Of a stretch of 64,000 nt of DNA, positions 5,403 through 28,503 are shown one piece after another. The notes below the pieces were generated by a model. The model was not told the origin of the DNA and made no database searches. It was given only the letters and a program-made list of their open reading frames with translations. The DNA lies in assembly GCF_003441615.1 (NCBI RefSeq), contig NZ_CP031842.1:2488001-2552000 (forward strand), read 5' to 3'. The translations under genes were made by a program, and so were the position numbers. Numbering within the stretch: position 1 is the stretch's first letter; each line of letters starts with the position of its first letter. The DNA is from Dechloromonas sp. HYN0024. Lineage in GTDB: Bacteria > Pseudomonadota > Gammaproteobacteria > Burkholderiales > Rhodocyclaceae.

Positions 5403-6688
5403 CAGAAGGGCTGCGCCTTCTTCAGCAGCGGCTTGGCACCGAGCAGGACATTGCCGCGATGCACCGAGGTATCGAGCGCCGCCTTGGCCGGCTTCCTGTC
5501 GTCCCACACCGCTTCCAGCTCCTCGTTGGTGATGATACGCACCGGATCGATATTGGCGACGCGCACAGCCGACTTGCCGCCGTTTCCATTCAGCGAGGCG
5601 TAGGCAACGTCGAGCGTCTTGTCGCCGTCCTGCAGCAGCTTGCTGCGCATCGCGGCACGGGCTGCCGAGGTCAGCGGCAGGCCGCCATAGACACGGACAA
5701 TTTCAAGCTGCATTTCGGGCGAAATCAGGAAGCTGACAAATTTGGCTGCCTGCTTGTACTGTGCCGCCGAACGGCCAGCGCCGATCCACAGCGACGCACC
5801 ATCGGCCAGCGAAGACTGACGACCGCCATAGACATCATCGTGATAAGGCAGAGGCGCGACCCCGAGTTCGACGCCCTTGGCATCCCGGAAATCGGTATGT
5901 TCGCGCGAATCGGTGGAAATCATCGCGCACTCACCTTCGTGAAAACGCGCACTGGCTTCGTTGCGACGACCAAAGAGCTTGAAATAATTGGCCTTGGTCC
6001 ACGTCGCCATCATCGCCAAATGCTTGACCTGCGGCAGGCCGTTGAAGGCCAGCACGCCCTTGTCGGAAACCGCCGGCAAACCGGAAATGGCGCTGACGTT
6101 ATCGACATGCACCCAGACCGGCCACGACGAGGTGTACGGGCAGGCATAGCCGGCGTCCTGCAACTTGTCGAGCATGCCCTGCATTTCAAACCAGGTCTTG
6201 GGCGGCTGATCGGGATTCAGGCCGGCCTTGCGGAAGGCGTTCTTGTTATAGAACAGCACCGGCGTCGAATACAGCACCGGCAAGGCGACCAGCCGGCCCT
6301 TGGCGTCCAGCGAACCGGCCTTGAGATCAGCCGACAATTCGCCCATTTTGAGGGGCTCGCCGGCCTTGGTCATCATCTCGTACAGCGGCACGAATTGTTT
6401 GGGCTGGCTGAGCACATCACTCATGTCGTAACGACTGACCAGATTCAATGCCGCCGGCTTGCCGCCCTTTTCCAGACGGACCAGCTTGAGGGTGCTGCCG
6501 GATTCTTTGTTGAAGCGATCGACAATGGCCTGTAGACGATCTTCGCCAACCGCACCAAGATTGTGTGCCAGCTCGAATTCGGCGGTCGGCACCGGCGCAG
6601 GTGCTGGCTTCGGCGGCTTGGCTTGGGCCAGGGAACTGGCCAGAGCCAGGGCGAGAACGAGTGCCAGGGGACGAACACAATGCGACAT
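5402..6688 (-). CDS. ugpB: UgpB-like sn-glycerol-3-phosphate ABC transporter substrate-binding protein
   Basis: A 428-residue periplasmic solute-binding protein with a signal peptide ending near residue 23 (SSLAQAK). The mature protein is an extracellular-solute-binding family 1 type: DRFNKESGS, LPVLYSTPVLFYNKNAFRKAG, PKTWFEM and the C-terminal FVSFLISPEMQ are characteristic of UgpB. The Pro/Ala linker PPKPAPAPVPTAE after the signal is unusual. It is coupled to ugpQ downstream. The membrane and ATPase subunits (ugpA, ugpE, ugpC) are not in this window, so it must rely on a transporter encoded elsewhere. A minus-strand -10 like TATAAT lies at 6718-6723. Confidence 0.88.
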   Translation of the reverse strand: MSHCVRPLALVLALALASSLAQAKPPKPAPAPVPTAEFELAHNLGAVGEDRLQAIVDRFNKESGSTLKLVRLEKGGKPAALNLVSRYDMSDVLSQPKQFVPLYEMMTKAGEPLKMGELSADLKAGSLDAKGRLVALPVLYSTPVLFYNKNAFRKAGLNPDQPPKTWFEMQGMLDKLQDAGYACPYTSSWPVWVHVDNVSAISGLPAVSDKGVLAFNGLPQVKHLAMMATWTKANYFKLFGRRNEASARFHEGECAMISTDSREHTDFRDAKGVELGVAPLPYHDDVYGGRQSSLADGASLWIGAGRSAAQYKQAAKFVSFLISPEMQLEIVRVYGGLPLTSAARAAMRSKLLQDGDKTLDVAYASLNGNGGKSAVRVANIDPVRIITNEELEAVWDDRKPAKAALDTSVHRGNVLLGAKPLLKKAQPF

Positions 6689-6754
6689 GGATACTCCAGC
6701 GGTTCTTAAAGATGCAAATTATAACGGCCAAGCACTATCACGCTCGCCACACAT

Positions 6755-6774
6755 TTTTCGCAAATATGCGAAAA
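6755..6774. promoter_or_regulatory. Perfect 8-bp inverted repeat in the ugpB / lipoprotein divergent region
   Basis: ttttcgca, spacer aata, tgcgaaaa: perfect 8-base arms with a 4-base spacer. It ends 8 bases before the lipoprotein ATG and sits about 50 bases upstream of the start of transcription expected from the ugpB -10 at 6718-6723. It could be an operator for a dimeric regulator, or an RNA hairpin at the lipoprotein translation start, which has no obvious ribosome site. Confidence 0.5.
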
Positions 6775-6782
6775 TTCCACCC

Positions 6783-7196
6783 ATGATCAAGCCAACTTTT
6801 CTTATTCTCGCCGTCCTTGGACTGGGCGCCTGCGACCAGGTGAACCAGAAGCTCGGTCTTGAGGATCTAGCCAAAAAGGAAGCCAAGGCCGAACAGGAAG
6901 CGAAGGCGGTTGGCAGCGCCTGCCGCCAGTCCGGTCGAGCCATCGAGGACTGCTATTCGATTTACGGCTGGCTACCCAAGGCTGGCATCTACACCGGCTG
7001 GCGCGAGATGGACGAATACATGCGCGAAAACAAGCTCGAGACCATCGCGCCGCAACTGCCCCCGCCAGAACCACCGGGCGCCAAGAAAAAGAAGAAAGCA
7101 GAGGCGGCAGGCGAAGGCGATGCCAAGGCAGATGCCAAGGCAGATGCCAAGGATGAGCACAAGGCTGAACCCGAGAAAAAAGCCGACAAACACTAA
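6783..7196 (+). CDS. putative lipoprotein with Lys/Ala-rich repeat tail
   Basis: A 137-residue protein. MIKPTFLILAVLGLGAC is a lipoprotein signal with a clear lipobox (LGAC), so the mature protein should be anchored by Cys17. The middle has a conserved-looking block with CRQSGRAIEDCYSIYGWLPKAGIYTGWREMDEYM, holding two cysteines that could form a disulfide. The last 45 residues are low complexity: a KKKKK run, then DAKADAKADAK from a tandem 12-base repeat at about 7120-7150. The function is unknown. It is followed by a histidine kinase gene on the same strand and may be co-transcribed with it. Confidence 0.8.
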   Translation: MIKPTFLILAVLGLGACDQVNQKLGLEDLAKKEAKAEQEAKAVGSACRQSGRAIEDCYSIYGWLPKAGIYTGWREMDEYMRENKLETIAPQLPPPEPPGAKKKKKAEAAGEGDAKADAKADAKDEHKAEPEKKADKH

Positions 7197-7214
7197 ACAG
7201 GCGAGGAGACTTCA

Positions 7215-7247
7215 ATGCTGCTGACGACGAGAAGACAGACACCATGA
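7215..7247 (+). CDS. candidate 10-codon leader ORF coupled to the kinase gene
   Basis: ATG at 7215-7217, ten codons (MLLTTRRQTP), TGA at 7245-7247. It has the best ribosome site in the region, gaggag at 7203-7208 at good spacing, while the kinase ATG at 7244 has none close by. The stop overlaps the kinase start as ATGA, so ribosomes ending here could restart on the kinase. Two adjacent aga codons, normally rare in GC-rich genomes, occur in it. Too short to call by homology; this is an inference from signal placement. Confidence 0.4.
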   Translation: MLLTTRRQTP

Positions 7248-9790
7248 AGCTTCCCAATTTTCTTGGCGGCATTCGCGGCAAGCTGATCGGCGTTTTTGTC
7301 CTGATCAAGGTAGTGCCGCTGCTCCTGCTGGCAGGATTTGCCTGGCACGCCACCAGCCAGTTGGGCGAAGACGTTTCGGCCAAGGCGGGCAGCATGGCCG
7401 ATGCCATGCTGACGACGATCAAGACGGTAGGCAAGACCGTTACCGATGACTCGATTCGCGCCCTCGACCTGCGTTCACGTGAAGCCATCGAGGCACTGAC
7501 CACCGAAACAGCCAAGGAAATCGCCACTTTCCTCTATGGCCGCGACGCCGACATCCGGCAAGCAGCGGCGCTCGAACCTTCCGAAGCGGCGTTCCGCAAC
7601 TTTCTCAGTGAACGGACCCGGCCGGTTTATCAGCATGGGCCGTGGAAACTCGCTGAAGATGGCAAGTCGTGGGTACCCGAACAGCCTGTTGTGCGCGAGG
7701 CCAAGGTAACGCGCCCGATACTGCCCGATAACGCCAAGGATTTCCATGCCCGTCCGGCGGAATATTTTGGCGAGAAGGAGCAACGCCCGCTGTTCGTCGA
7801 AATGACCTTTATCGACCTCAACGGCAACGAGACCGTCAAGGTCACCACCAGCCAGCTGACCGACAAAGGGCGCAAGAACATCAGCGTCCGCAACAACACC
7901 TTCGTCAGGGCGGAAACCTATTTCGCCGACCTGAAAAAACTGAAGCCGGGCGACATCTACGTCTCCGAGGTGATCGGTGCGTACGTTCCGACCCAGCTCA
8001 TCGGGCCTTACCTGCCAGCCAGCCTGGATAAGGCCGGCAAGCCCTTCAAGCCCGAAGAATCTGCCTACGCCGGCACCGAGAACCCCGTCGGCAAGCGATT
8101 TCGGGGCATTGTCCGCTGGGCCATGCCGGTCCTCCGGGGCGGCCAGACCATCGGCTACGTCACCCTCGCCCTTGACCACGACCACATTCGCCAGTTCTCC
8201 GACCGGCTAATGCCGACCGAGGAGCGCCATACCCCGATTGCCGATGCCATCAAGGGCAATTACGCCTTCCTCTGGGACCACCGGAGTCGCTCCATTTCCC
8301 ATCCGCGGGATTACTTCATCACCGGCTACGATGCGCAAACCGGGCAACCAGCCACTCCCTGGATGGATGCCGACCTGTACGCCGAATGGCAGGCTAGCGG
8401 CAAGCCTTCGCACGAGTTTCTGGCGGGCACGCCACCCTTCCGTAACCAGAACCTCAAACTCAAGCCGGCCAAGGAGCTGATCAAAGCCGGCACGGTCGGC
8501 CTTGACTGCCGCTACCTCAACTTCTCGCCACAATGCGACGGCTGGAATGCACTGACCGAGCATGGCGGCTCCGGCTCCTTCGTCATCTTCTTCTCCGGCC
8601 TGTGGAAGCTCACCACTGCCGCCGCCATCCCGTACTACACCGGCCAGTACGGCAAATCGCCCCAGGGCTTCGGTTTTGTCACCATCGGCGCTAATGTCGA
8701 CGAGTTCCACAAGGCGGCGACCGAGACAGCCGGACGCATCAACACCCTGCTCGAAGAAAAGGATGCCAGCCTTGCCGCCCAACGCAGCGAACTGCTTGAC
8801 CACATTGCCGACGGTCTGACCACAACCGCCATCGGCCTGTGGGGCTCGACATTGCTCATGGTCGTTATCGTCATCGGCATTGCCGTGTGGATGGCCGGGT
8901 TGCTCACCCGCCGCATCACGGCAATGATCTCGGGCATTCGTGCCTTCCAGCAGGGAGATCTGAAACGACGACTGGAGGCGAACTCCTCCGACGAAATGGG
9001 CGAACTTTCCCGCTCCTTCAACCGCATGGCTGATTCCGTTGAAGAGTCCTTTAAGCGTCTCGAAGAGGCGAAAGAGAAAGCCGAGGAGGCCAGCCGGCAA
9101 AAATCCGCCTTCCTGGCCACCATGTCACACGAACTGCGCACCCCGCTCAACGGTATTCTCGGGTTTGCCGATCTCCTCAAGGACGATCTCGAAGATCCCG
9201 ATCAACGCAGTCATGCAGAAATCATTGCGCAGAGCGGCAACCACCTGCTTCAGTTGGTCAACGAAATTCTCGACCTGGCGAAGATCGAGTCCGGCGAAAT
9301 GCACTTCAACATCAGTGCAGTTCCACTTGCCGGCATGCTCTCTGAATGCATTGCCAGCCAACGGGCCATAGCCGAAGAAAAAGGCCTGAAACTCGAACTG
9401 CAGCTGGCCGATGACCTACCCGATACATTCAATACCGACCCGACGCGCCTGCGCCAGATCCTCAATAATTTGCTCGGCAATGCGGTCAAGTTCACGGCGG
9501 TCGGCCAGGTCAGCCTTCATGTCTCCCGTGCCGAACGCGACATCGCCTTCGCCATTCGCGACTCCGGCCCCGGCATTGCACCGGAACACCACGAAACAAT
9601 TTTTGAGAAATTCAAACAGCTGGACAATTTCCTGACCCGGGAACATGGTGGCACCGGTCTGGGGCTAGCCCTCGTTCGCCAGTTGGTGGAACACATGGGC
9701 GGAAGCGTGACCCTCGACTCAGACATTGGTGCCGGATCGACCTTCACTGTTTACCTGCCATTGGATATCGGCCATGACCGAACAACGTAA
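7244..9790 (+). CDS. membrane sensor histidine kinase (sensory domain, HAMP, HisKA, HATPase)
   Basis: An 848-residue kinase. A first membrane helix at about residues 13-30 is followed by a large extracytoplasmic domain of roughly 500 residues, probably Cache-like. It contains HPRDYFITGYD and a Cys pair (GLDCRYLNFSPQCDG). The second helix is near residues 528-552, then HAMP (RRITAMISGIRAFQQGDL). A coiled coil (EEAKEKAEEASRQK) leads to HisKA with phospho-acceptor His629 (MSHELRTPLNG). HATPase motifs are intact: [17 protein letters not shown] and GGTGLGLAL. The ligand is unknown. The gene overlaps its receiver partner by 17 bases and may be translated through the short leader ORF ending at its start. 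Confidence 0.93.
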   Translation: MKLPNFLGGIRGKLIGVFVLIKVVPLLLLAGFAWHATSQLGEDVSAKAGSMADAMLTTIKTVGKTVTDDSIRALDLRSREAIEALTTETAKEIATFLYGRDADIRQAAALEPSEAAFRNFLSERTRPVYQHGPWKLAEDGKSWVPEQPVVREAKVTRPILPDNAKDFHARPAEYFGEKEQRPLFVEMTFIDLNGNETVKVTTSQLTDKGRKNISVRNNTFVRAETYFADLKKLKPGDIYVSEVIGAYVPTQLIGPYLPASLDKAGKPFKPEESAYAGTENPVGKRFRGIVRWAMPVLRGGQTIGYVTLALDHDHIRQFSDRLMPTEERHTPIADAIKGNYAFLWDHRSRSISHPRDYFITGYDAQTGQPATPWMDADLYAEWQASGKPSHEFLAGTPPFRNQNLKLKPAKELIKAGTVGLDCRYLNFSPQCDGWNALTEHGGSGSFVIFFSGLWKLTTAAAIPYYTGQYGKSPQGFGFVTIGANVDEFHKAATETAGRINTLLEEKDASLAAQRSELLDHIADGLTTTAIGLWGSTLLMVVIVIGIAVWMAGLLTRRITAMISGIRAFQQGDLKRRLEANSSDEMGELSRSFNRMADSVEESFKRLEEAKEKAEEASRQKSAFLATMSHELRTPLNGILGFADLLKDDLEDPDQRSHAEIIAQSGNHLLQLVNEILDLAKIESGEMHFNISAVPLAGMLSECIASQRAIAEEKGLKLELQLADDLPDTFNTDPTRLRQILNNLLGNAVKFTAVGQVSLHVSRAERDIAFAIRDSGPGIAPEHHETIFEKFKQLDNFLTREHGGTGLGLALVRQLVEHMGGSVTLDSDIGAGSTFTVYLPLDIGHDRTT

Positions 9791-10139
9791 CGCCCTGGTC
9801 GTGGACGACCATCCGACCAACCGACTACTTGCCTGCGCGTTGCTCAAGAAATTCGGCTGGACGGTATTCGAAGCCGAATGCGGCACCATGGCGCTGACCA
9901 TGGCCGCCGAGCATCAATTCCGCCTCGTCCTCCTCGACATCAGCATGCCCGGCCTGTCCGGCGAAGAAACCTGCGCCGCCCTAAGGGCGGCCGAGACCGC
10001 CCAGCGGCTGCACATCGTTGCCTATACGGCACATGCCTTCCCGGAGGATGAGCAACGCCTCCTCGCCTGCGGGTTCGACGAAGTTCTCGTCAAACCGATC
10101 AGCCGCCAGCGCATTGAAGATCTGGTGGCCAAACTTTAG
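9774..10139 (+). CDS. single-domain response regulator (receiver only)
   Basis: A 121-residue CheY-like receiver without an output domain. The acidic pair is in LVVDDHP, the phospho-acceptor is Asp55 (LLDISMPG), the conserved Thr/Ala is in VAYTAHAF, and the Lys is in VLVKPIS. The start at 9774 (MTEQRN) was chosen over a longer frame because it begins directly before the receiver fold. It overlaps the end of the upstream kinase gene by 17 bases, so it is almost certainly its direct partner. With no output domain it may act by protein contact or as an intermediate in a phosphorelay. Confidence 0.92.
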   Translation: MTEQRNALVVDDHPTNRLLACALLKKFGWTVFEAECGTMALTMAAEHQFRLVLLDISMPGLSGEETCAALRAAETAQRLHIVAYTAHAFPEDEQRLLACGFDEVLVKPISRQRIEDLVAKL

Positions 10140-10212
10140 TTTTGGCGCAGCCGCTCGGGATTCGTTTTTAAGGCCGGGCTCAAGCAGCCGGGTGCTTGGC
10201 GGCAGGTAGGCG

Positions 10213-10218
10213 TATAAT
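10213..10218 (+). promoter_or_regulatory. TATAAT -10-like box next to the rhlE start
   Basis: A consensus TATAAT ends 8 bases before the rhlE ATG (10227). Transcription from it would begin at or within a base or two of the ATG, giving a leaderless message. No convincing -35 is seen at normal spacing, and no ribosome site lies between the box and the ATG. Chance occurrence is possible. Confidence 0.35.
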
Positions 10219-10226
10219 TCGGCCCC

Positions 10227-11774
10227 ATGTCTGAAATCAATACCTTAGCCGGCGATAACGCCGTAGCCATCGCTGCCGATGCAGCGCCTGAAATCACCTT
10301 CGCCGACCTCGGCCTGGCGCCCGAACTTCTGCGTGCCGTCCTCGATGAAGGCTACACCAAGCCGACGCCGATCCAGGCCCAGGCCATCCCCCTCGTCATC
10401 AGCGGCAAGGACATCATGGGCGGCGCCCAGACCGGCACCGGCAAGACGGCCGCGTTCACCCTGCCCATCCTCCAGCGCATCCTGCCCTTTGCCAGCAGCA
10501 GCCCGTCGCCGGCCAAGCACCCGGTACGCGCCCTGATCCTCGCCCCAACCCGCGAACTGGCCATGCAGGTCTTCGAGTCGGTCAAGACCTACAGCAAGCA
10601 CACACCGATCCGCGCCATGTGCGCCTTCGGCGGCGTCGACATCAAGCCGCAGATCGCCGAACTCAAGAAAGGCGTCGAAATCCTCGTCGCCACGCCGGGC
10701 CGCCTGCTCGATCACGTCGAAAACAAGAGTGTCAGCTTTAATTCCGTCCAGGCCCTCGTCCTCGATGAAGCCGACCGCATGCTCGACATGGGCTTCGTGC
10801 CTGACGTCACGCGCATCCTCAACATGCTGCCGGCGCAGCGCCAGAGCCTGCTTTTTTCGGCCACCTTCTCGGAAGAAATCAAGAAGCTGGCCGATAGCAT
10901 GTTGAAGTCGCCGATCCTGATCGAAGTCGCCCGCCGCAACCAGGTCTCGGACACCATTACTCACCGCGTCCACCCGGTCTCCGAATACGGCAAGCGCGGC
11001 CTGCTCACCAAGCTGCTGAAATCCGGCGAAATCCGTCAGTGCATCGTCTTCTGTCGCACCAAGCAGGGTTGCTCGCGCCTGACCCGAGAACTCCAACGTG
11101 CCGGCATCAAGGCCGACGCCATTCACGGCGACAAGAGCCAGCTTGAACGCATCAAGGCACTCGAGGCGTTCAAGGGCGGCGAGACCGACGCCCTCATCGC
11201 CACTGACGTCGCCGCCCGTGGTCTCGACGTTGATGATCTGCCCTACGTCATCAACTACGAACTGCCGCACACCCCGGAAGACTACGTGCACCGCATCGGC
11301 CGTACCGGCCGCGCTGGCAAGATGGGCAATGCCATCTCGCTGGTCAGCGCACGCGAAGTTGTCTATCTGGTCGATATCGAAAAGCTCATCAAACGGCCGA
11401 TCGAACAGATCGAGGTGGCCGGGTTCGAACCCGAACCGGAATATGAATATCCGCTCGGCAACAAGAGAAAGCGCAGCGCCCCGGTAGTCGCCCCGACCGC
11501 CCAGCGCCCCGAACGCAGTGAGCGTCCAGAACGATCAGAACGCCCCGAGCGTAGCGACCGCTCGGCTCGACCGGAACGCAATGACCGGCAGGATCGCCGA
11601 CCACCCCGGCGCAACCCGATGATCGCCGCCGACGGTTTTGACTTCAGCAAGCCCTACGAAGACAACTCACCACGCGGCGATGTACCGGATTCACCGACGG
11701 CCCCGGCCAAGGTGGACCCGCATAAGCCGAAACGGGTTGTTGCGGCCTTGCTCGGTGGTCTCGGACGCAAGTAA
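10227..11774 (+). CDS. rhlE: DEAD-box ATP-dependent RNA helicase RhlE
   Basis: A 515-residue RNA helicase. The Q motif region reads ITFADLGL with PTPIQAQAIP. Motif I is AQTGTGKT, Ia PTRELA, motif II DEAD starting near residue 180 (LDEADRMLDMGF), motif III SAT, and motif VI HRIGRTGRAG. The C-terminal roughly 110 residues are a basic, disordered RNA-binding tail with repeats of the type RPERSERPERS, as is usual for RhlE. The role is ribosome assembly and RNA remodelling. It appears monocistronic, with a strong terminator immediately downstream. The tail repeat is encoded by imperfect tandem DNA at about 11500-11580. Confidence 0.95.
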   Translation: MSEINTLAGDNAVAIAADAAPEITFADLGLAPELLRAVLDEGYTKPTPIQAQAIPLVISGKDIMGGAQTGTGKTAAFTLPILQRILPFASSSPSPAKHPVRALILAPTRELAMQVFESVKTYSKHTPIRAMCAFGGVDIKPQIAELKKGVEILVATPGRLLDHVENKSVSFNSVQALVLDEADRMLDMGFVPDVTRILNMLPAQRQSLLFSATFSEEIKKLADSMLKSPILIEVARRNQVSDTITHRVHPVSEYGKRGLLTKLLKSGEIRQCIVFCRTKQGCSRLTRELQRAGIKADAIHGDKSQLERIKALEAFKGGETDALIATDVAARGLDVDDLPYVINYELPHTPEDYVHRIGRTGRAGKMGNAISLVSAREVVYLVDIEKLIKRPIEQIEVAGFEPEPEYEYPLGNKRKRSAPVVAPTAQRPERSERPERSERPERSDRSARPERNDRQDRRPPRRNPMIAADGFDFSKPYEDNSPRGDVPDSPTAPAKVDPHKPKRVVAALLGGLGRK

Positions 11775-19440: not shown

Positions 19441-21459
19441 ATGGGTTCAGCAAATTCGACCCGGGCATTATTGCTGACATTCGCCATCACCATCATGGTG
19501 CTGATACTCGGCGCATGGTTGATGCTCTACGATTTGCGACAAACCGACGTTCAACAAGCCCAAAATCAACTGGCTGGACTCAGTCGCGTACTTTCAGACC
19601 AGACTGCAAATAGTCTGGAAAGTGTGTCGCTAGTGATGCGCAGCGCCAGGGAAAGGCTGTCTGACCCCGTTGGGAGACGCCTTGATCTTGATGACACACC
19701 GGTCACGTTTCTGCTCAAGGCACGCGTCGCAGGTCTTCCGCAGCTGCGCTCCCTGTTCATCGTGGACCGCGCCGGCATGCTCGCCAATTCGTCATTTGCC
19801 GACCGAACCCAGGTCATGTCCCTTGCCGACAGGGACTACTTCCAGCATTTTCTGAACAAGCCCGATGACAGCTACTTTCTCAGCCCGCCGTTGCGTAGCC
19901 GGCTTGATGGGGAGTGGAGCATCTTCATGAGCATCCCGTTCTTTGACGAAGCTCATCACTTGCGCGGCATTCTCGTGGCTTCCATCAGAATTGACTATTT
20001 CAACAAACTCTATCGGCAAGTCGGCACCAATCTGGCTGATGGAATCGAATTGCTCGATGACAGGGGCTTGCGCGTCGCCAGTTTTCCGCAGAACGATGAG
20101 TTGATGGGGATATTTATTGAAGATTTACCCTCGTTAGGGCCAATTACAGATGGTGAACCAGAACGGCATCAGGTAGCGCCCGTAATTTTGAAAGGGGTGC
20201 CCGGCTTTGCCGGCCTGAATCGGGTCAACGGTTTTCCATTGACCATAGCGCTCTTTTATTCCGAGCAACGTGTGCTGGCCCCCTGGCGCAAAATCGCCGC
20301 AATGGTCATTCTCGGCGTTGGATTCGTCGTCCTGCTTATTCTGCTGGCCACTGTCAGCCTGGTAAGCCATCTGAAGCAGACCGATGCGTTGACCCTTGCC
20401 CTGCACAAGCAGGACGAACGAATGCGCCAACTTATCCAATCGGTCCACGATGCCATCGTAACGGTAGATGCGGGCTTGAACATCGTGATGCTCAATGCAG
20501 CTGCCAGAAAGATGTTCAGCATTCCCGAGCCGGCGACAGAAACCTTCCGGTTCGCCAACTGCCTCGATGACAAGTCTGCCCACAAGCTTTCCCTCTGGTT
20601 GCATGAAGGTGACGCACCAGCAGACCCCGACGAGAACTCACTCGACGAAATCACAGCCAAGCGTCCCAATGGTCAATCAGTCGTTCTTGAAACAAGCTAC
20701 TCAAGTGTCCGGGTTCAGGACCAACGCTACCTCACCCTTGTCTTGCGCGACGTTTCCGAGCGCCACCGCGTCGAGCAAGCCTTGCGCGAAAGCAACAGAC
20801 AGCTGAAAGAACTGACGGCCATGCTGCAAAAGGTACGCGAGGACGAGCGAAGCCGTATCGCTCGTGAAATGCATGATGAACTGGGGCAGTTGATCACAGG
20901 TATCCGTTTTGAGTTGCGCTGGCTGGAAAGTCGTCTGCCGGCACAACGTCCGGATCTATCGAGCAAACTTGGCGCAATGGTCAAACAACTGGATGTCACC
21001 ATTGCCGCTGTCAGGCGGATCACGACAGAGTTACACCCCCTGATTCTCGACGATCTCGGGCTGACTGCCGCAGCCAGCTGGCTGGCAGACCAATTCGCCC
21101 AGCGCACGGGCATCGAGGTTGATCTCCGGCTTGCCGATGAAGAACCCACCCAAGGAGGCCCAGTCGCCCTCGCCCTGTTCCGGATCATGCAGGAATCCCT
21201 GAACAACGTTGCCAAGTACGCCGAAGCAAGCCTGGTCGAAATCCGGCTGCACCGAAATACATATCACTGGCAACTGGTCATCAAGGACAACGGTGTCGGC
21301 ATCCAGGTCGAAAGCACAAAGCGGGAAGGTTTTGGATTGATCGGCATGCGAGAGCGTTCGACACTGCTCGGCGGCAGCTTTGATGTAGACTCCGTACGCG
21401 GCCGGGGAACACGAATCGAAGTGCGCATCCCGGTTGAAATCGAGCAGAGGCAGGCATGA
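19441..21459 (+). CDS. membrane sensor histidine kinase, NarX/DegS class (HisKA_3)
   Basis: A roughly 672-residue kinase. A membrane helix near residues 11-32 precedes an extracytoplasmic Cache-type sensor (LRSLFIVDRAGMLANSS, ADRDYFQHF, FMSIPFFDEAHHLRGILVASI). A second helix lies near residues 288-312. A PAS domain follows (MRQLIQSVHDAIVTVDAGLNIV). The HisKA_3 dimerisation helix has phospho-acceptor His478 (REMHDELGQLITG). HATPase motifs are LNNVAKYAEA, DNGVGI and GFGLIGMRER. The ATG at 19441 is used; TTG at 19429, with ggaga six bases upstream, is an alternative. It overlaps the next regulator gene as ATGA and is immediately upstream of the porin-cytochrome cluster. Confidence 0.93.
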   Translation: MGSANSTRALLLTFAITIMVLILGAWLMLYDLRQTDVQQAQNQLAGLSRVLSDQTANSLESVSLVMRSARERLSDPVGRRLDLDDTPVTFLLKARVAGLPQLRSLFIVDRAGMLANSSFADRTQVMSLADRDYFQHFLNKPDDSYFLSPPLRSRLDGEWSIFMSIPFFDEAHHLRGILVASIRIDYFNKLYRQVGTNLADGIELLDDRGLRVASFPQNDELMGIFIEDLPSLGPITDGEPERHQVAPVILKGVPGFAGLNRVNGFPLTIALFYSEQRVLAPWRKIAAMVILGVGFVVLLILLATVSLVSHLKQTDALTLALHKQDERMRQLIQSVHDAIVTVDAGLNIVMLNAAARKMFSIPEPATETFRFANCLDDKSAHKLSLWLHEGDAPADPDENSLDEITAKRPNGQSVVLETSYSSVRVQDQRYLTLVLRDVSERHRVEQALRESNRQLKELTAMLQKVREDERSRIAREMHDELGQLITGIRFELRWLESRLPAQRPDLSSKLGAMVKQLDVTIAAVRRITTELHPLILDDLGLTAAASWLADQFAQRTGIEVDLRLADEEPTQGGPVALALFRIMQESLNNVAKYAEASLVEIRLHRNTYHWQLVIKDNGVGIQVESTKREGFGLIGMRERSTLLGGSFDVDSVRGRGTRIEVRIPVEIEQRQA

Positions 21460-22109
21460 ACAAGATACGCGTATTGCTAGCCGACGACCACGCCATCATT
21501 CGCGACGGTATTCGGCAGATCCTGGAGGATTCAGAGGATTTTCTGGTTGCCGGCGAGGCCGCCAACGGTATTGAAGTCATGCAGCACATTCGGGCCGCGA
21601 CTTGCGACCTTCTAGTGCTCGATATCTCGATGCCCGGACGAAACGGCATTGATCTGATACGGCACGTCCATGATGAAAAGCACGACCTGCCCATCCTCAT
21701 CCTCAGCATGCATCAGGAAGAGCAATATGCCGTGCGAGCCCTGCACGCTGGTGCTTCCGGATACGTCACCAAGGAAAGCGACAGCGAACTGCTGCTCGCA
21801 GCGATGCGCCGGGTAGCTGGTGGCGGCGTCTTTGTCAGCGAGAAGGTTGCCGAGATCATGGCGCGTGGTTTGCACCCGATCAGTGAGGTTTTCCCGCACA
21901 CACTGCTATCGGATCGCGAATTTCAGGTTTTCGAGATGCTCGCTCAGGGCCTGGGGCTAACCGAAATCGCCAATGAGTTCTCTCTCAGCGTCAAAACAAT
22001 CAGTACGCACAAGAGCCGCATTCTGCAAAAGATGAATTTCAACAACATGGCGGATCTGATCCGCTATGCCATCACGCACAAACTCGTCGAGCAGGACGAT
22101 ATGGCCTGA
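21456..22109 (+). CDS. NarL/FixJ-family response regulator
   Basis: A 217-residue regulator: receiver domain (LLADDHAIIRDG, phospho-acceptor Asp56 in VLDISMPG, ILSMHQEE, GYVTKES) and a C-terminal LuxR-type helix-turn-helix (LSDREFQVFEMLAQGLGLTEIANEFSLS, then VKTISTHKSRILQKM). It is translationally coupled to the kinase upstream and is certainly its partner. The four cytochrome/porin genes start 146 bases downstream on the same strand, so control of that cluster is a reasonable guess that the sequence does not prove. Confidence 0.95.
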   Translation: MNKIRVLLADDHAIIRDGIRQILEDSEDFLVAGEAANGIEVMQHIRAATCDLLVLDISMPGRNGIDLIRHVHDEKHDLPILILSMHQEEQYAVRALHAGASGYVTKESDSELLLAAMRRVAGGGVFVSEKVAEIMARGLHPISEVFPHTLLSDREFQVFEMLAQGLGLTEIANEFSLSVKTISTHKSRILQKMNFNNMADLIRYAITHKLVEQDDMA

Positions 22110-22174
22110 CGCGAGGCCAGAATCAGAAAATTCCTACACGCAAATTAATCCCCTTCCGATAAAGGGGGCTGAAG

Positions 22175-22229
22175 AACCGGAAGACAATGTCGCTAGTTAA
22201 ATGTAACTAGTTTGTGTCCTTCGGTTTTT
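22175..22229 (+). promoter_or_regulatory. Long imperfect hairpin followed by a T-run, upstream of the cytochrome cluster
   Basis: Outer arms starting aaccgg (22175) and ending cggtt (22226) pair over about 12 positions with one mismatch. After an internal loop there is a perfect 7-base inner stem, ctagtta / taactag (22193-22199 and 22204-22210), with loop aatg. The stem is followed by ttt(g). It looks like an intrinsic terminator or attenuator between the regulator gene and the cytochrome genes; the inner dyad could also be an operator. A smaller hairpin (cccctt / aagggg) lies at 22150-22167. Confidence 0.55.
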
Positions 22230-22254
22230 GAATATTTGCAACAGGAGTCAGATG

Positions 22255-22596
22255 ATGAAGTTTTCCGCCAAGACCCTCGCCACGCTGGGCATCTTTTCCG
22301 CACTGATCATGACCGCAACGAGCGCCAGCGCGCTCAGTGACGACGAAGTCAAGTCATTGATGAAGAAGAACAATTGCTTCAAGTGCCACGCCGAAAACAA
22401 GGCCAAGGACGGTCCCTCGTACAAAGAGATCGCCGAAAAGAACCGCGACAAGCCGGATATCGCTGCGAAGTTCTACAAGCGCGTCACATCCTTCGAGCAA
22501 GTCGAAATCAAGGGCAAAAAGGAAGACCACGAACCGCTTAAAACCAAGGACGACGCTGAAATCAAGGCCATCGTCCAGTGGATCCTGACTCGTTAA
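22255..22596 (+). CDS. small monoheme cytochrome c of the porin-cytochrome cluster
   Basis: A 113-residue exported protein with a signal peptide (KFSAKTLATLGIFSALIM, cleavage after SASA). One heme site, CFKCH, is followed by DGPSYKEIAEK, as in class I cytochromes c. Where such cytochromes have the distal Met (in a PMP context), this protein has EDHEPLKTKDD, and there is no Met after the heme region, so bis-His ligation is likely. The start at 22255 has aggag seven bases upstream; ATG at 22252 is an alternative. It is probably a periplasmic shuttle between the inner-membrane cytochrome and the decaheme protein encoded next. Confidence 0.9.
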   Translation: MKFSAKTLATLGIFSALIMTATSASALSDDEVKSLMKKNNCFKCHAENKAKDGPSYKEIAEKNRDKPDIAAKFYKRVTSFEQVEIKGKKEDHEPLKTKDDAEIKAIVQWILTR

Positions 22597-22619
22597 ATAG
22601 TTTTCTGGGGGTAACAATA

Positions 22620-23603
22620 ATGATTACAAAAATGCGCAAGGCTGCCTTGGCGTCGCTGATGCTCGTCGGGTTGTGCCTAACAGCATCACCGGCTCTGGCC
22701 GCAGACAGCAAGTTGCCGGTTCCGGGCAGCAAGGATGTCATCTACAAGGACGACGCCAAATGCACCAGCTGTCACGATGAAAGTGAAGTTGTGCCTGTTC
22801 TGTCCATCGCCAAGACGAAGCACGGGGTTGCCAAGGATGGCCGCGTCCCAAGCTGCACGTCTTGCCATGGAGAGAGCGAGAAGCACGCCAACAAGCCTGA
22901 AGACGTCAAGGTCCGCCCGGCTACCGAGCGCAATTTTGGCAAGAAATCCACCCTGACTGCTGAAGAAAAGAGTGCCGTGTGCACCGGCTGCCACCAAGGC
23001 GGCAAGCACATGAACTGGAATACCAGCGCGCACTCAAGCAATGACGTCGCCTGTACTTCCTGCCACCAGGTACATACCGGTCACGACAAGGTTCGCGACA
23101 AGCGCGCCCAGCCGGAAGTCTGCTACACCTGCCACAAGCAGCAGCGCGCAGAAGTTAACAAGCCTTCGCATCACCCGATCCCGGAAGGCAAGATGACTTG
23201 TTCGGATTGCCATAATGCTCATGGTTCGGCTGGTCAGAAAATGCTGGTTAAAGACACGACCAACGCCACCTGTTTCACTTGTCACGCAGAAAAACGTGGG
23301 CCTTTCATCCACAATCACCAGCCGGTCGTTGAGGACTGTTCAAACTGCCACAACCCACATGGCACCGTAGCGGAAAACATGCTGAAGTCCCGTATGCCAT
23401 TCCTGTGCCAGCAGTGTCACGGTTCTTCTTCGCATCCTGGTAACGTACCCGGCGTACGTAGCAATATGCCAAACGCGATCAGCAGCAATATCGGCCCCGG
23501 ATACGCCCAGGCCCGAGGATGCAGCAACTGCCACACCAATATCCATGGCAGCAATAATCCAAGTACCGCCACATCTAGCGGTGCTGGCCGTTTCTTCCGC
23601 TGA
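22620..23603 (+). CDS. mtrA: decaheme c-type cytochrome, MtrA/MtoA/DmsE family
   Basis: A 327-residue periplasmic multiheme cytochrome with a signal peptide ending in ASPALAADS. Ten CXXCH sites are visible in the mature protein: CTSCH, CTSCH, CTGCH, CTSCH, CYTCH, CSDCH, CFTCH, CSNCH, CQQCH and CSNCH. Length and heme number fit MtrA/PioA/MtoA, which sits inside an outer-membrane barrel and conducts electrons across it. The ATG spans 22620-22622 with ggggg upstream. The next gene encodes the matching barrel. The direction of electron flow (Fe(III) reduction or Fe(II) oxidation) cannot be told from the sequence; the symbol is a family label only. Confidence 0.95.
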   Translation: MITKMRKAALASLMLVGLCLTASPALAADSKLPVPGSKDVIYKDDAKCTSCHDESEVVPVLSIAKTKHGVAKDGRVPSCTSCHGESEKHANKPEDVKVRPATERNFGKKSTLTAEEKSAVCTGCHQGGKHMNWNTSAHSSNDVACTSCHQVHTGHDKVRDKRAQPEVCYTCHKQQRAEVNKPSHHPIPEGKMTCSDCHNAHGSAGQKMLVKDTTNATCFTCHAEKRGPFIHNHQPVVEDCSNCHNPHGTVAENMLKSRMPFLCQQCHGSSSHPGNVPGVRSNMPNAISSNIGPGYAQARGCSNCHTNIHGSNNPSTATSSGAGRFFR

Positions 23604-23620
23604 TCTCAAGGAAAATGATC

Positions 23621-25744
23621 ATGAGCAAGCAAACGAATTTTATGCGGACTGCAATTTTTGTTGCCCTCTCCGCCGCATTTCCATTCGCCGAAGTACAAGC
23701 GGATGATGAAATCGATGCCTTGGTAAATCCCAATGCAACCGAAGCCACCTTCAAACTACCTTACATGGATAAGGTCAATCCGCTGTATCGCCAATATAAC
23801 GGTGTCAATCAAACCGGCATTAGCGGAAATATTGATCTAAATATCGTCAATCGTAACAATCAGGGTCAGTGGTTCAAACTTCAGGCTGAAAACCTTGGGC
23901 TAAGCACCCAGGAGATTGGAATCTCCTACGAACAACAGGGTGATTGGGCGCTAGGCCTGGACTACAACCAGATTCCTCGTTATGCGCCGTATCAGGTAAA
24001 TACGGCAGTAGCTGGTATCGGCTCGAATCAAATTACCCAACCATCCTATGCCAATGGCGCATTTAGTGGCGGTACTTTAACCAACCCTGTGGTCTATGAA
24101 ACAAACCTGAAGACCCAACGCGATATAGCAACGTTGTCTGCAAGCAAGTTTTTGATGGAAGGCCTAAAGCTGAGCTTTTCGTTCAAAAATGAAGAAAAGA
24201 CCGGTACGCGCATGGACGGTGTTCGCGGCGTTGCTGGAACAGGAACACCAAACCGCTATAGCGGCTATCTTTTTTCACCTGAGCCCATCAACCAGTCACA
24301 CCAGCAATTTGAAGCCACGCTTGATTACTCGGCGGCCAAATTCCAACTTTCTGCTGGGTATTACGGCAGTTTCCTGAGTGCCAAAAACAATTCGCTGGCG
24401 ATTGTTGGTGGCACCAATACTGCTCTCGTATCTACCGGAGCCGGTGGTCTTTCACCGATCGCATTGTCGCCCGATAATCAGGTTCAGCAAATTTACGTAA
24501 ACGGTGCTTATAACTTTACGGACAGTACCCGGGGCTCACTCAAAGTCGCCTATTCGGAGGGCCGCCAGAATGAAAACTTCCTGTTCCGCACCGACGTAAA
24601 TCCAGGAATCGGTAGCAATCTGGATGCCAAAGTTCAAACAACCGAAGCCTTTGCCTCACTAACCTCGCGTATCACGAAGGACTTCAAATTGCTTGGATCA
24701 TGGCGATACGAAGATAAAAGTGACAAAACGCCAGTTCGCTTGTTCTATACGGGCTACCCGAACAATCCTGAATCCCATGTCGCAAATTGGGGGAAGGCCG
24801 AGGCGGACTACCGGATCGGCGGTGGATTCAGCATCAACGGCGGCTTCGATTACACACATAAGCGTAGCCTGGAGTGGGAACGACGCGAAGTTGAGGAACT
24901 TACTACCCGCCTTTCCCTCCGCAAATCGATGGGTGAAACAGTTAACGGCACGATTACCCTAGCCCACGCCGACCGTACTGGCTCAGACTGGGAAGGCGGG
25001 AATCCTACAATTTATCCCGTCTACCTGGCTGACCGGCAGCGAGAAAAGGTCCGTGGCATGGTGGACTGGTCACCTGCGGAGCGCTTAAATCTCCAATTTG
25101 CCTATGAGGCATTTTTCGACAAGTACACCAAGAGTGCATACGGTCTCGACTCCGGAGAAGGGCAAGTCTTTTCATTTGATGCAAACTACGACATCTCCGA
25201 CAACTGGAAACTGAACGGGTGGTACTCAAAGCAAACTGGCAACATTCAGCAAAACATGCAGGGAGCGGTTTGCTCCGGAACTGGAACATGCGCGTCAGGA
25301 ACGACCACATTCCGCACGGGGGGCTTGATTCAGTGGGATGCGAAACTAAATCAGGATTCAGACCAGTTTGGATTTGGAATAACAGGAAAGCTGTCTGTAT
25401 TTGATGTGGGTGCCAAGTATTTTTATACCCGCGACTTGACCAAGCAGGAAATCAGCCCACTCCCAGCAACAACATGTCTAAATGCGGCCTGTACATCAAC
25501 GGGAGTTGTCGCCACAGGCATGGGAATTATTCCCGATGCAAAATATACGCAGAACACATTCAGTCTTTATGGAACATATCAGGTCTCGAAAGCGACGAAA
25601 CTGCGGCTTGATTACATCTACGACCTGCGCAAGATGGATGACTACACTTGGCAAAACTGGGTGTATGCGGATGGCACAAGAATCTACGTTAAGCCGGAAC
25701 AGACAACGCAGATATTTGGAATAAGCCTTATCCAGTCGTTCTGA
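23621..25744 (+). CDS. mtrB: MtrB/PioB-family outer-membrane beta-barrel protein
   Basis: A 707-residue outer-membrane protein with a signal peptide (TAIFVALSAAFPFAEVQAD). The mature protein alternates polar and aromatic residues in repeated strands and ends in Phe (LIQSF), as outer-membrane barrels do. Family cues are LPYMDKVNPLYRQYNGVN near the N-terminus and repeated GxFSxxNxxDYTHKRS-like turns. The N-terminal CXXC seen in Shewanella MtrB is absent; four cysteines lie in two later loops. Start 23621 is preferred over 23615 for spacing to aagga. The gene is visibly more AT-rich than its neighbours, which may reflect barrel codon use or transfer. It should form the sheath for the decaheme cytochrome. 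Confidence 0.92.
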   Translation: MSKQTNFMRTAIFVALSAAFPFAEVQADDEIDALVNPNATEATFKLPYMDKVNPLYRQYNGVNQTGISGNIDLNIVNRNNQGQWFKLQAENLGLSTQEIGISYEQQGDWALGLDYNQIPRYAPYQVNTAVAGIGSNQITQPSYANGAFSGGTLTNPVVYETNLKTQRDIATLSASKFLMEGLKLSFSFKNEEKTGTRMDGVRGVAGTGTPNRYSGYLFSPEPINQSHQQFEATLDYSAAKFQLSAGYYGSFLSAKNNSLAIVGGTNTALVSTGAGGLSPIALSPDNQVQQIYVNGAYNFTDSTRGSLKVAYSEGRQNENFLFRTDVNPGIGSNLDAKVQTTEAFASLTSRITKDFKLLGSWRYEDKSDKTPVRLFYTGYPNNPESHVANWGKAEADYRIGGGFSINGGFDYTHKRSLEWERREVEELTTRLSLRKSMGETVNGTITLAHADRTGSDWEGGNPTIYPVYLADRQREKVRGMVDWSPAERLNLQFAYEAFFDKYTKSAYGLDSGEGQVFSFDANYDISDNWKLNGWYSKQTGNIQQNMQGAVCSGTGTCASGTTTFRTGGLIQWDAKLNQDSDQFGFGITGKLSVFDVGAKYFYTRDLTKQEISPLPATTCLNAACTSTGVVATGMGIIPDAKYTQNTFSLYGTYQVSKATKLRLDYIYDLRKMDDYTWQNWVYADGTRIYVKPEQTTQIFGISLIQSF

Positions 25745-25755
25745 TAGTCTCTTTG

Positions 25756-25787
25756 AACCGGGCTGGCAACAGCCCGGTTTGTATTTA
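25756..25787 (+). terminator. Hairpin between the barrel gene and the b-type cytochrome gene
   Basis: A perfect 9-base stem (aaccgggct / agcccggtt) with loop ggcaac, followed by an interrupted T-run (ttgtattt). It resembles a Rho-independent terminator inside the gene cluster and may reduce transcription into the downstream cytochrome b gene. Confidence 0.65.
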
Positions 25788-25805
25788 TAGTTAGGAAAAC
25801 AGCAA

Positions 25806-26609
25806 ATGAGCGAACAAGAAACCAACACCCCGCCCAAGCGGGTCTTCGTCAAAGTATGGAACCCGCTTATCCGCATTGGCCACTGGGTCATGGTTCTATG
25901 CTTTGCCGCCCTGTACATCAAGGCATCAAAGTTTCCCCTGCATGCGTACGCCGCCTACATCATCATGGGCTATATGTGCTTCCGCATCATCTACGGGCTA
26001 GTCGGGCCGCGGGCAGTGCGTTTCTGGACTTTTATCTACAGCCCGAAGACGATGATCAAATACGGCATCGACTCGGTGGTCGGCCATCCGATGCATACCA
26101 TTTCGCATAACCCGCTGGGTGGGCTGATGGTTTTCGGGCTGCTTTTTGCCATGCTGGGTACCGGCGCTCTGGGCATCATGCTTTACAGCTCTGGCCAGGA
26201 ACTGGGGCCGCTCGGCAACATGGTTCCCAGCGAGTGGGAAGATGAGTTTTTCACGATGACCGTGTTTGGTCAGGATCTGGTTGTCGGCCTCAAGGACCTC
26301 CATATCTTCTGTGGCAATGTGGCCGCATCGCTTGTAACCTGCCACCTGCTGGGCACCCTGTGGGCTACCGCCGTGCATAAATCCGGGCACGTCATCGGCA
26401 TGATCACCGGCGTCAAGGATGCGATGGCTGATGATCCGGAGCTGAAGCACTACAAACAAGTCCCCGCACCGCGCTTTGCCAAGAATCTTTCTGATTCCGT
26501 CGGCCCGGCAATCACGGAGGTCATTCTGGTTTCCGGTATTTTGATCTGCCTTGTCTGGCCGCTGATCGAACTTTTCGGCTGGATAAACAAATTCATCCCG
26601 TCGTATTGA
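25806..26609 (+). CDS. b561-type membrane cytochrome b of the porin-cytochrome cluster
   Basis: A 267-residue integral membrane protein of the cytochrome b561/Ni-hydrogenase b-type family. Four hydrophobic segments can be seen, at about residues 22-40, 44-62, 101-127 and 226-248, with another around 165-185. Candidate heme-ligating histidines are in IRIGHWVMV, PLHAYAAYI, HPMHTISHNPLGG, and DLHIFCGNVAASLVTCHLLG. It likely links the quinone pool to periplasmic cytochromes, in place of the tetraheme CymA used by Shewanella. It comes 61 bases after the barrel gene, across a hairpin, and is followed by a strong terminator, so it is the last gene of the cluster. Confidence 0.88.
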   Translation: MSEQETNTPPKRVFVKVWNPLIRIGHWVMVLCFAALYIKASKFPLHAYAAYIIMGYMCFRIIYGLVGPRAVRFWTFIYSPKTMIKYGIDSVVGHPMHTISHNPLGGLMVFGLLFAMLGTGALGIMLYSSGQELGPLGNMVPSEWEDEFFTMTVFGQDLVVGLKDLHIFCGNVAASLVTCHLLGTLWATAVHKSGHVIGMITGVKDAMADDPELKHYKQVPAPRFAKNLSDSVGPAITEVILVSGILICLVWPLIELFGWINKFIPSY

Positions 26610-27842: not shown

Positions 27843-28475
27843 TCAGGGTAGCTGCGTCAGGTAATTGGCCAGGGCCAAAATCTCTTCGTTCTTCAGCCCC
27901 GCCGTGGCAATGCTCATCAACTGGTTGTTGCGCACACCGGTCCGGTCGCGATATCGGGTGATCGTTGTCTGCAGGTAGGGCAGCTTCTGGCCGGCCAAGC
28001 GGGCGATGGCTTCATTGCCGCGAGCCTGCTCGCCGTGGCAACGGACACAAAGACGCTCGAACAAGACCTTGCCCTTGGCCACCTGGGCTGCATCGGCGGC
28101 CGACGGGCGAACCGGCAGGCTGGCAAAGTAGGTAGCAACCTGAACCCGCTCTTCATCCTTGAGCACCTTGATCAGGCCCTGCATGAAGGCATCCTTGCGC
28201 TCGCCGGCACCAAATTTGCGAATCTGCTCAAGCAGGTAGGCCGGATTCTGCCCCGCCAGATTGGGCACGTCGGGGGTCTTGCTGATACCGTCATCGCCAT
28301 GGCAATTGGCACAAAAGAACGTGGCCTTCTTGCCGGCGTCGACCGCTGCGCGCAGCGCCACCGGGTCGCCACTCAGCGCCTTCAGGCGATCCTGCGCCGG
28401 GCTCGGCGTCGGCAGCGATTGAGCAAAAGCCGAAGCGGCTACCAGACAGCCCACAAGAACCAAAAATGCACGCAT
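27843..28475 (-). CDS. diheme cytochrome c4
   Basis: A 210-residue exported protein with a signal peptide ending in ASAFAQS and two cytochrome c domains. Heme sites are CANCH (about residue 56) and CVRCH (about residue 143). Each half also holds a probable distal Met (KDAFMQGLIKVL and NNQLMSIATAGL), the layout of periplasmic cytochrome c4, which carries electrons to terminal oxidases. The ATG at 28475 has ggggg(t) about seven bases upstream; a TTG one codon earlier is less likely. It lies 28 bases after tldD on the same strand and may share its transcript. Confidence 0.93.
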   Translation of the reverse strand: MRAFLVLVGCLVAASAFAQSLPTPSPAQDRLKALSGDPVALRAAVDAGKKATFFCANCHGDDGISKTPDVPNLAGQNPAYLLEQIRKFGAGERKDAFMQGLIKVLKDEERVQVATYFASLPVRPSAADAAQVAKGKVLFERLCVRCHGEQARGNEAIARLAGQKLPYLQTTITRYRDRTGVRNNQLMSIATAGLKNEEILALANYLTQLP

Positions 28476-28503
28476 CAAATTACCCCCACAAAGTAGCTAC
28501 TTA

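Follow-up and report, generated by a model that had tools for sequence, protein, structure and literature searches.

How is an Mto-type outer-membrane electron conduit switched on, and which inner-membrane protein connects it to the quinone pool? Both questions are raised by a six-gene cluster of Dechloromonas sp. HYN0024 at positions 19441–26609 of a 64,000-nucleotide stretch of contig NZ_CP031842.1 (hereafter the window). The cluster encodes, in this order, a sensor histidine kinase, a response regulator, a monoheme cytochrome c, a decaheme cytochrome c, an outer-membrane barrel, and a cytochrome b561-family protein, and all six genes were confirmed on the plus strand, where a first-pass annotation made from the DNA letters had placed them. 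We consider it probable that the cluster is a switchable Mto-type conduit with b561 at the inner membrane and with a two-component switch and promoter box of its own. In the literature searched we found no account of how such conduits are turned on; with the regulator family named and the box sequence defined, the question becomes testable in a genetically tractable relative (Thauera or Azonexus).

A porin-cytochrome conduit with a stand-alone cytochrome b561

Sequence comparison supports the cluster as an MtoAB-type porin-cytochrome conduit, a variant of the known Mto conduit. The MtoA/MtrA-type decaheme protein (22620–23603, 10 CXXCH) matched TIGR03508 with 278.8 bits (cut-off 192.2) and the MtrA chain 6r2q_A with 236.5 bits. 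The MtoB/MtrB-type barrel (23615–25744) matched PF11854 with 394.7 bits (cut-off 23), TIGR03509 with 320.8 bits, and the MtrB chain 6r2q_B with 93.6 bits. The scores of the cluster proteins are far beyond chance, and the profile searches bore out the MtrA/MtrB-type pair proposed earlier. The MtoD-type, predicted periplasmic monoheme cytochrome (ATG at 22252 or 22255, end at 22596) had its best solved-structure match in 4xxl (79.1 bits), which is given as bis-His MtoD in the MtoD paper. By our count of the alignment, the distal-His column was His in 28 of 28 aligned monohemes, and on both grounds the description of this protein as bis-His-like was well founded. The barrel gene, noticed earlier as AT-rich, has a guanine-plus-cytosine (GC) content of 0.492, the lowest among 43 barrels compared; because 36 of these 43 fall below the GC of their own stretch, this is partly general for such genes.

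Family profile searches of the six proteins gave no match to the high-potential iron-sulfur protein PioC or to dimethyl sulfoxide (DMSO) reductase subunits, and Pfam showed no surface multiheme MtrC/OmcA among them. The cluster has neither CymA/ImoA nor a multiheme MtoC as a quinone module. In its place stands the b561 protein (25806–26609, 267 aa), which is free of CXXCH and matched PF01292 with 50.4 bits (cut-off 30.1). Its four His residues H26, H46, H166, and H180 are conserved in 33 of 33 alignment rows; from CybB and FdnI we take them to be heme ligands. The predicted fold is FdnI/CybB-like, with FdnI as the best match, and the model continues past the CybB-length part into a further, C-terminal helix.

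Of 57 proteins matched in a search for the b561 protein, 32 share 54% identity or more with the query and cover 96% or more of it. In genomes the protein is rare. Matches occurred in 7 of 150 family genomes at E 1e-20, six of them distant (35–40% identity), and in 6 of 399 order genomes at 1e-40 with an alignment query, while three other genomes of the genus in the family scan and five in the order scan gave none. The single-protein genome scan yielded two loci, and an alignment query would reach further. In five of the seven loci with a b561 above 100 bits, the gene lies downstream of mtoB (the window, L023, L024, L070, and L072; in L070 a chemoreceptor gene sits between the two). MtoC-type partners have a PF01292 region of their own (35.1 bits in L089, the example tested). 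Given this position, the four conserved His, the FdnI/CybB-like fold, and the PF01292 region of MtoC-type partners, it is plausible that b561 is the quinone link of the conduit. The earlier proposal that b561 replaces CymA as this link is plausible to the same degree. We rejected the idea that the window b561 descends directly from the MtoC b-domain (hhalign probability 1.0%, E 0.052), and because of this low probability only a superfamily relation, at the PF01292 level, is claimed.

A terminator-like hairpin (25754–25781, plus strand, 12 pairs followed by a T-rich tail; −21.5 kcal/mol, z −3.32) lies in the gap between mtoB and b561 and is a possible attenuator. Hairpins were also found in the same gap in L023 (8901–8995, z −2.56) and L024 (8936–9003, z −1.27).

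A promoter box shared by conduits with a kinase/regulator pair

The kinase (19441–21459) and regulator (21456–22109) frames overlap by 4 bases. The kinase combines a dCache-like sensor (36.7 bits, below the 45-bit cut-off) with PAS, HisKA_3, and HATPase_c, so that the label NarX-type suited its HisKA_3/ATPase transmitter but not its sensor part; the NarX model scored 88 bits against an equivalog cut-off of 578. Likewise, the regulator has a receiver and a GerE (LuxR/NarL-type) DNA-binding domain, but the NarL equivalog model reached 133.6 bits against a cut-off of 250. Compared with the window, 10 related kinases beside other MtoAB loci were 42–56% identical in the transmitter and 22–35% in the sensor, the pattern to be expected of varied signals converging on a single conserved output. 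The regulator was 63–72% identical to five compared regulators of other MtoAB loci. A heme-c sensor in the kinase was rejected, with CXXCH in 0 of 11 aligned kinases.

Aligning 10 loci over the region after the regulator and upstream of the first conduit gene revealed, by eye, a conserved box of 38 bp, TAGGAA-N2-TTCCTA-N8-TTAATCC-N6-GAT. Scanned with up to 3 mismatches, the window had one match, at 22123–22160 between the regulator and mtoD on the plus strand (2 mismatches), and 100 shuffles of the window had none. The 150 family genomes gave 13 matches in 11 genomes, a count that is partly circular because 6 of the 13 sites had already served to define the box; the reversed control pattern gave 0. 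For nine of the 13 matches, an MtrB match followed 1.2–2.2 kb downstream on that strand, and one match (L166) preceded an MtoD gene lying where the contig ends. Another preceded a chemoreceptor gene (L165). The last two (L167 and L168) were before a gene whose product has propeller repeats of nitrous oxide reductase and directly after a related regulator; in both loci (L167 at 5948–10584) the order is a kinase with a Tll0287-like sensor, the regulator, and then the box and the nitrous oxide reductase-type gene. Of the seven newly found sites, three are at MtoAB loci, and two of these loci have a kinase/regulator pair.

Among 43 loci with an MtoB hit, several of which had served to find the box, it was present in 11 of 11 with the pair, with 0–4 mismatches (4 in L091), and in 2 of 32 without it (L024 with 0 mismatches and L164 with 3); the best site in the other 30 had at least 6 mismatches. 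For 32 loci, chosen by an MtoB match alone plus the window, the counts were 7 of 7 with the pair versus 0 of 25 without (Fisher p 3e-7, which is optimistic because the window and the six other pair-bearing loci of this set defined the box). Outside these 43 loci, L165, L170, and L172 also have an MtrB match; none of them had the pair, and the box of L165 was 4 kb off, before the chemoreceptor gene.

We conclude that the box is likely the binding site of the adjacent regulator, and the conserved box lends support to the suggestion that the two-component system controls the cluster. In an alignment of 14 sites, a weakly conserved −10-like A.aaT follows the box, always by the same distance; in the window the possible −10 hexamer would be GACAAT (22182–22187, plus strand), and a simple promoter scan of the window did not list it. 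A perfect palindrome, CTAGTTA-N4-TAACTAG (22192–22209), lies just downstream of the box, but it was set aside as a shared regulatory site, since neither L023 nor L024 showed it at this position.

Exchange of modules among related loci

Gene order was compared across relatives, as the first-pass annotation had proposed. All six genes occur in the same order in Thauera linaloolentis (L023), and a Rhodocyclales metagenome-assembled genome (L024) has the last four, with no kinase/regulator beside them. Identities between the window and Thauera were 77% for b561, 72% for the regulator, 62% for the decaheme protein, and 32% for the barrel. For L024 they were 75% (b561), 79% (decaheme), and 65% (barrel), and for L100, which has a 7-CXXCH partner and no b561 seen, 72% (decaheme) and 65% (barrel). 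From these values we conclude that the barrel and the inner-membrane partner have been exchanged independently.

PF11854 matched in 39 of 150 family genomes, and a census of 31 MtoB loci from PF11854-positive family genomes showed varied inner-membrane candidates nearby. The b561 protein was found in 2 loci, an 8-CXXCH protein (about 650–700 aa) in 5 (the one tested, L089, being that with the PF01292 region), a 3–4-CXXCH protein (about 200 aa) in 5 (NapC/NirT in both of those tested), and a 7-CXXCH protein (about 320–365 aa) in 7; none was recognised in 12. A large (at least 789 aa) 10-CXXCH protein, as MtrC types would have, was present in 6.

Kinase/regulator pairs with varied sensors, a conserved regulator, and the 38-bp box precede MtoAB loci whose partner is b561 or an MtoC-like, NapC-like, or 7-heme protein, and the same box also stands before the nitrous oxide reductase gene, with a related regulator, and before a chemoreceptor with CXXCH. 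It seems to us somewhat better supported than its negation that one regulator family and one DNA code govern many swappable electron conduits, the window being the version with a bare diheme cytochrome b as its quinone module. The box would also allow genomes to be searched for co-regulated electron-transfer genes.

Open reading frames (ORFs) of 542–546 aa with one CXXCH were observed by several MtoAB loci (L070 8674–10302, L072 5595–7223, L088 4693–6333, and L094 4064–5692). Both of those tested belong to the methyl-accepting chemotaxis proteins and may sense redox state or heme for energy taxis. The Thauera cluster is preceded (L023 21–2290) by the end of a second MtrB_PioB-type barrel (123.8 bits) and two 2-CXXCH cytochromes, and it is followed by genes that we read as cytochrome c maturation genes.

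Electron partners and quinones in the rest of the genome

The statement that no MtrC/OmcA is present held for the cluster and, by TIGR03507 (0 matches), for the whole genome. The broader claim that a surface multiheme protein is lacking was true of the cluster but not of the genome, which carries a PCC3-like locus elsewhere (L025 5925–17743). Its ORFs encode proteins of 335 aa, 614 aa with 24 CXXCH, and 2032 aa with 76 CXXCH, and an outer-membrane-protein-like protein of 826 aa; the largest CXXCH count known to the authors of a 2017 paper was 85 (PMC5566968). The 76-CXXCH protein was considered as a surface partner of the cluster, and nothing ties it to the cluster. CymA was correctly reported as missing from the cluster, but the genome has one NapC/NirT-family protein, adjoining a small 2-CXXCH ORF that we read, with no family search, as NapB.

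The genome contains menD (440 bits), the sole menaquinone gene tested. It gave no PF02621 match, the marker searched for the futalosine pathway, and no RuBisCO match. The presence of menD together with the unmatched RuBisCO leans against lithoautotrophy, and we therefore hold lithoautotrophic Fe(II) oxidation to be less likely than outward respiration or a heterotroph's auxiliary uptake of electrons.

Proposed working and alternatives

From the gene content, conserved ligands, and conserved box observed, we propose the following working, in which regulator binding and the quinone role of b561 are inferred, as is the likelier direction of electron flow given above. A periplasmic signal, read by the dCache-PAS kinase, would lead to phosphorylation of the regulator, which would then bind the box 91 bp upstream of mtoD and switch on mtoD-mtoA-mtoB, and the partly terminating hairpin would pass lower-level expression to the b561 gene. 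MtoA inside MtoB would carry electrons across the outer membrane. At the inner membrane b561 would exchange electrons with the quinone pool, the role of CymA or MtoC in other Mto loci, and might be reached from MtoA directly or through MtoD or some other periplasmic carrier. As the cluster has no surface cytochrome, MtoA would be limited to a protein encoded elsewhere or to small soluble partners (chelated Fe, humic or quinone shuttles). If b561 is indeed the quinone module, the conduit would have a very small partner at the inner membrane, one that lacks c-heme and could help both to understand conduits and to rebuild them in laboratory strains.

Several points weigh against this model. As reported in PMC13390432, purified MtoD of Sideroxydans lithotrophicus ES-1 bound neither MtoA nor the CymA homologue ImoA, where the His-Met cytochrome PmcA did bind, and for this reason a chain MtoA–MtoD–b561 cannot be relied on. 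The hairpin might also cut b561 off from the mto transcript, and its counterpart in L024 is not significant. Two of the seven b561 loci (L069 and L071) have no MtoAB in the stretch, and hhalign of b561 against seven MtoC-like proteins gave no support. On the regulatory side, the box had been defined on some of the sites later counted, and L024 and L164 carry it with no such pair in the stretch seen.

The behaviour of the ES-1 protein also favours another route for the electrons, in which the conduit feeds a high-potential chain, from MtoD to a terminal oxidase or other periplasmic acceptor, and b561 is not the quinone link. ES-1 MtoD (+155 mV) was proposed to serve a high-potential acceptor (PMC13390432), and the hairpin before b561 is consistent with such a route. 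However, b561 is 75–77% identical in three loci, directly 3' of mtoB, even where the barrel is just 32% identical, and three other locus types have a CymA- or MtoC-like protein in that role; we regard this route as unlikely. We think it very improbable that b561 carries no conduit electrons and is a superoxide oxidase like E. coli CybB, protecting an Fe-handling conduit, since its best match is the quinone-reducing FdnI and its C-terminal helix extends past the CybB-length part.

Service to a particular soluble acceptor (DMSO, iodate, or tetrathionate) is suggested by the DmsE name of TIGR03508, the model that the decaheme protein matches. This model also takes in MtrA/MtoA-type proteins, and 0 of 6 cluster proteins matched a molybdopterin-enzyme family, which makes such service improbable. 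The variable genomic site described below, the low GC of the barrel, and the missing b561 matches in the other genus genomes of the two scans would fit a recently acquired or decaying island without current function. This we hold to be the most remote of the readings, given that all six frames are intact and that the 10 CXXCH, the four His ligands, and the promoter box are all kept. The reading we prefer remains the Mto-type conduit with b561 as its inner-membrane partner.

Comparison with known systems

The cluster shares a decaheme protein, a barrel, a monoheme MtoD, and the lack of MtrC with Mto systems that have a multiheme MtoC (PMC5566968 and PMC6295460), but its inner-membrane candidate is a stand-alone b561 without CXXCH. 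The Mto system of ES-1 (mtoABD-cymA/imoA) likewise has MtoA, MtoB, and a bis-His MtoD, whereas its inner-membrane protein is the tetraheme NapC-type ImoA; ES-1 has ubiquinone genes only (PMC13390432), and here menD is present. In Gallionellaceae of culture KS, a b561 domain was proposed as a quinone module beside MtoAB (mto operon with downstream Cytbc), but there a diheme c domain is joined to it, and the fusion is encoded in a downstream operon of its own, without MtoD (PMC5566968). Shewanella MtrCAB has homologues of MtrA and MtrB (6r2q), while here CymA is missing from the cluster and MtrC/OmcA from the cluster and, by TIGR03507, from the genome. FdnI, the gamma subunit of E. coli formate dehydrogenase-N, appears from the model to share a four-helix diheme b fold with b561, but no dehydrogenase partner is present here and the C-terminal helix is extra.

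The conduit core, MtoD, and the b561 domain as a quinone module, including the b561-diheme fusion, have already been described (PMC5566968). So far as the literature searched goes, three things are new: a stand-alone b561 form conserved in at least three genomes, the recurrence of the kinase/regulator pair at MtoAB loci, and the promoter box. That literature did not contain the box core (14 letters), and the papers listed showed neither a link between MtoA and two-component systems nor a b561 standing alone beside MtoAB; for the b561 this is no proof of absence, subscription journals being outside the scope of the search.

Genomic site

The cluster lies between adenosyltransferase-like and DAHP-synthase-like genes, named from our own reading of translations without family searches, at a site that is variable in the genus. 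The DAHP-synthase-like gene was matched in 38 of 40 genomes and 20 genus relatives were compared; in 12 of them the stretch also contained the adenosyltransferase-like gene. Among these 12, G539 (L129) has a different Mto cluster in the gap, with its kinase 39%, regulator 70%, and decaheme protein 50% identical, an 8-CXXCH MtoC-like protein in place of b561, and the opposite orientation relative to the DAHP synthase gene. The gap in the other 11 was about 2.0–5.2 kb with no conduit match (ORFs read in three). Near the cluster in the window, on the minus strand (27843–28478), is a gene for a 211-aa protein with two cytochrome c stretches, which we read as c4-like.

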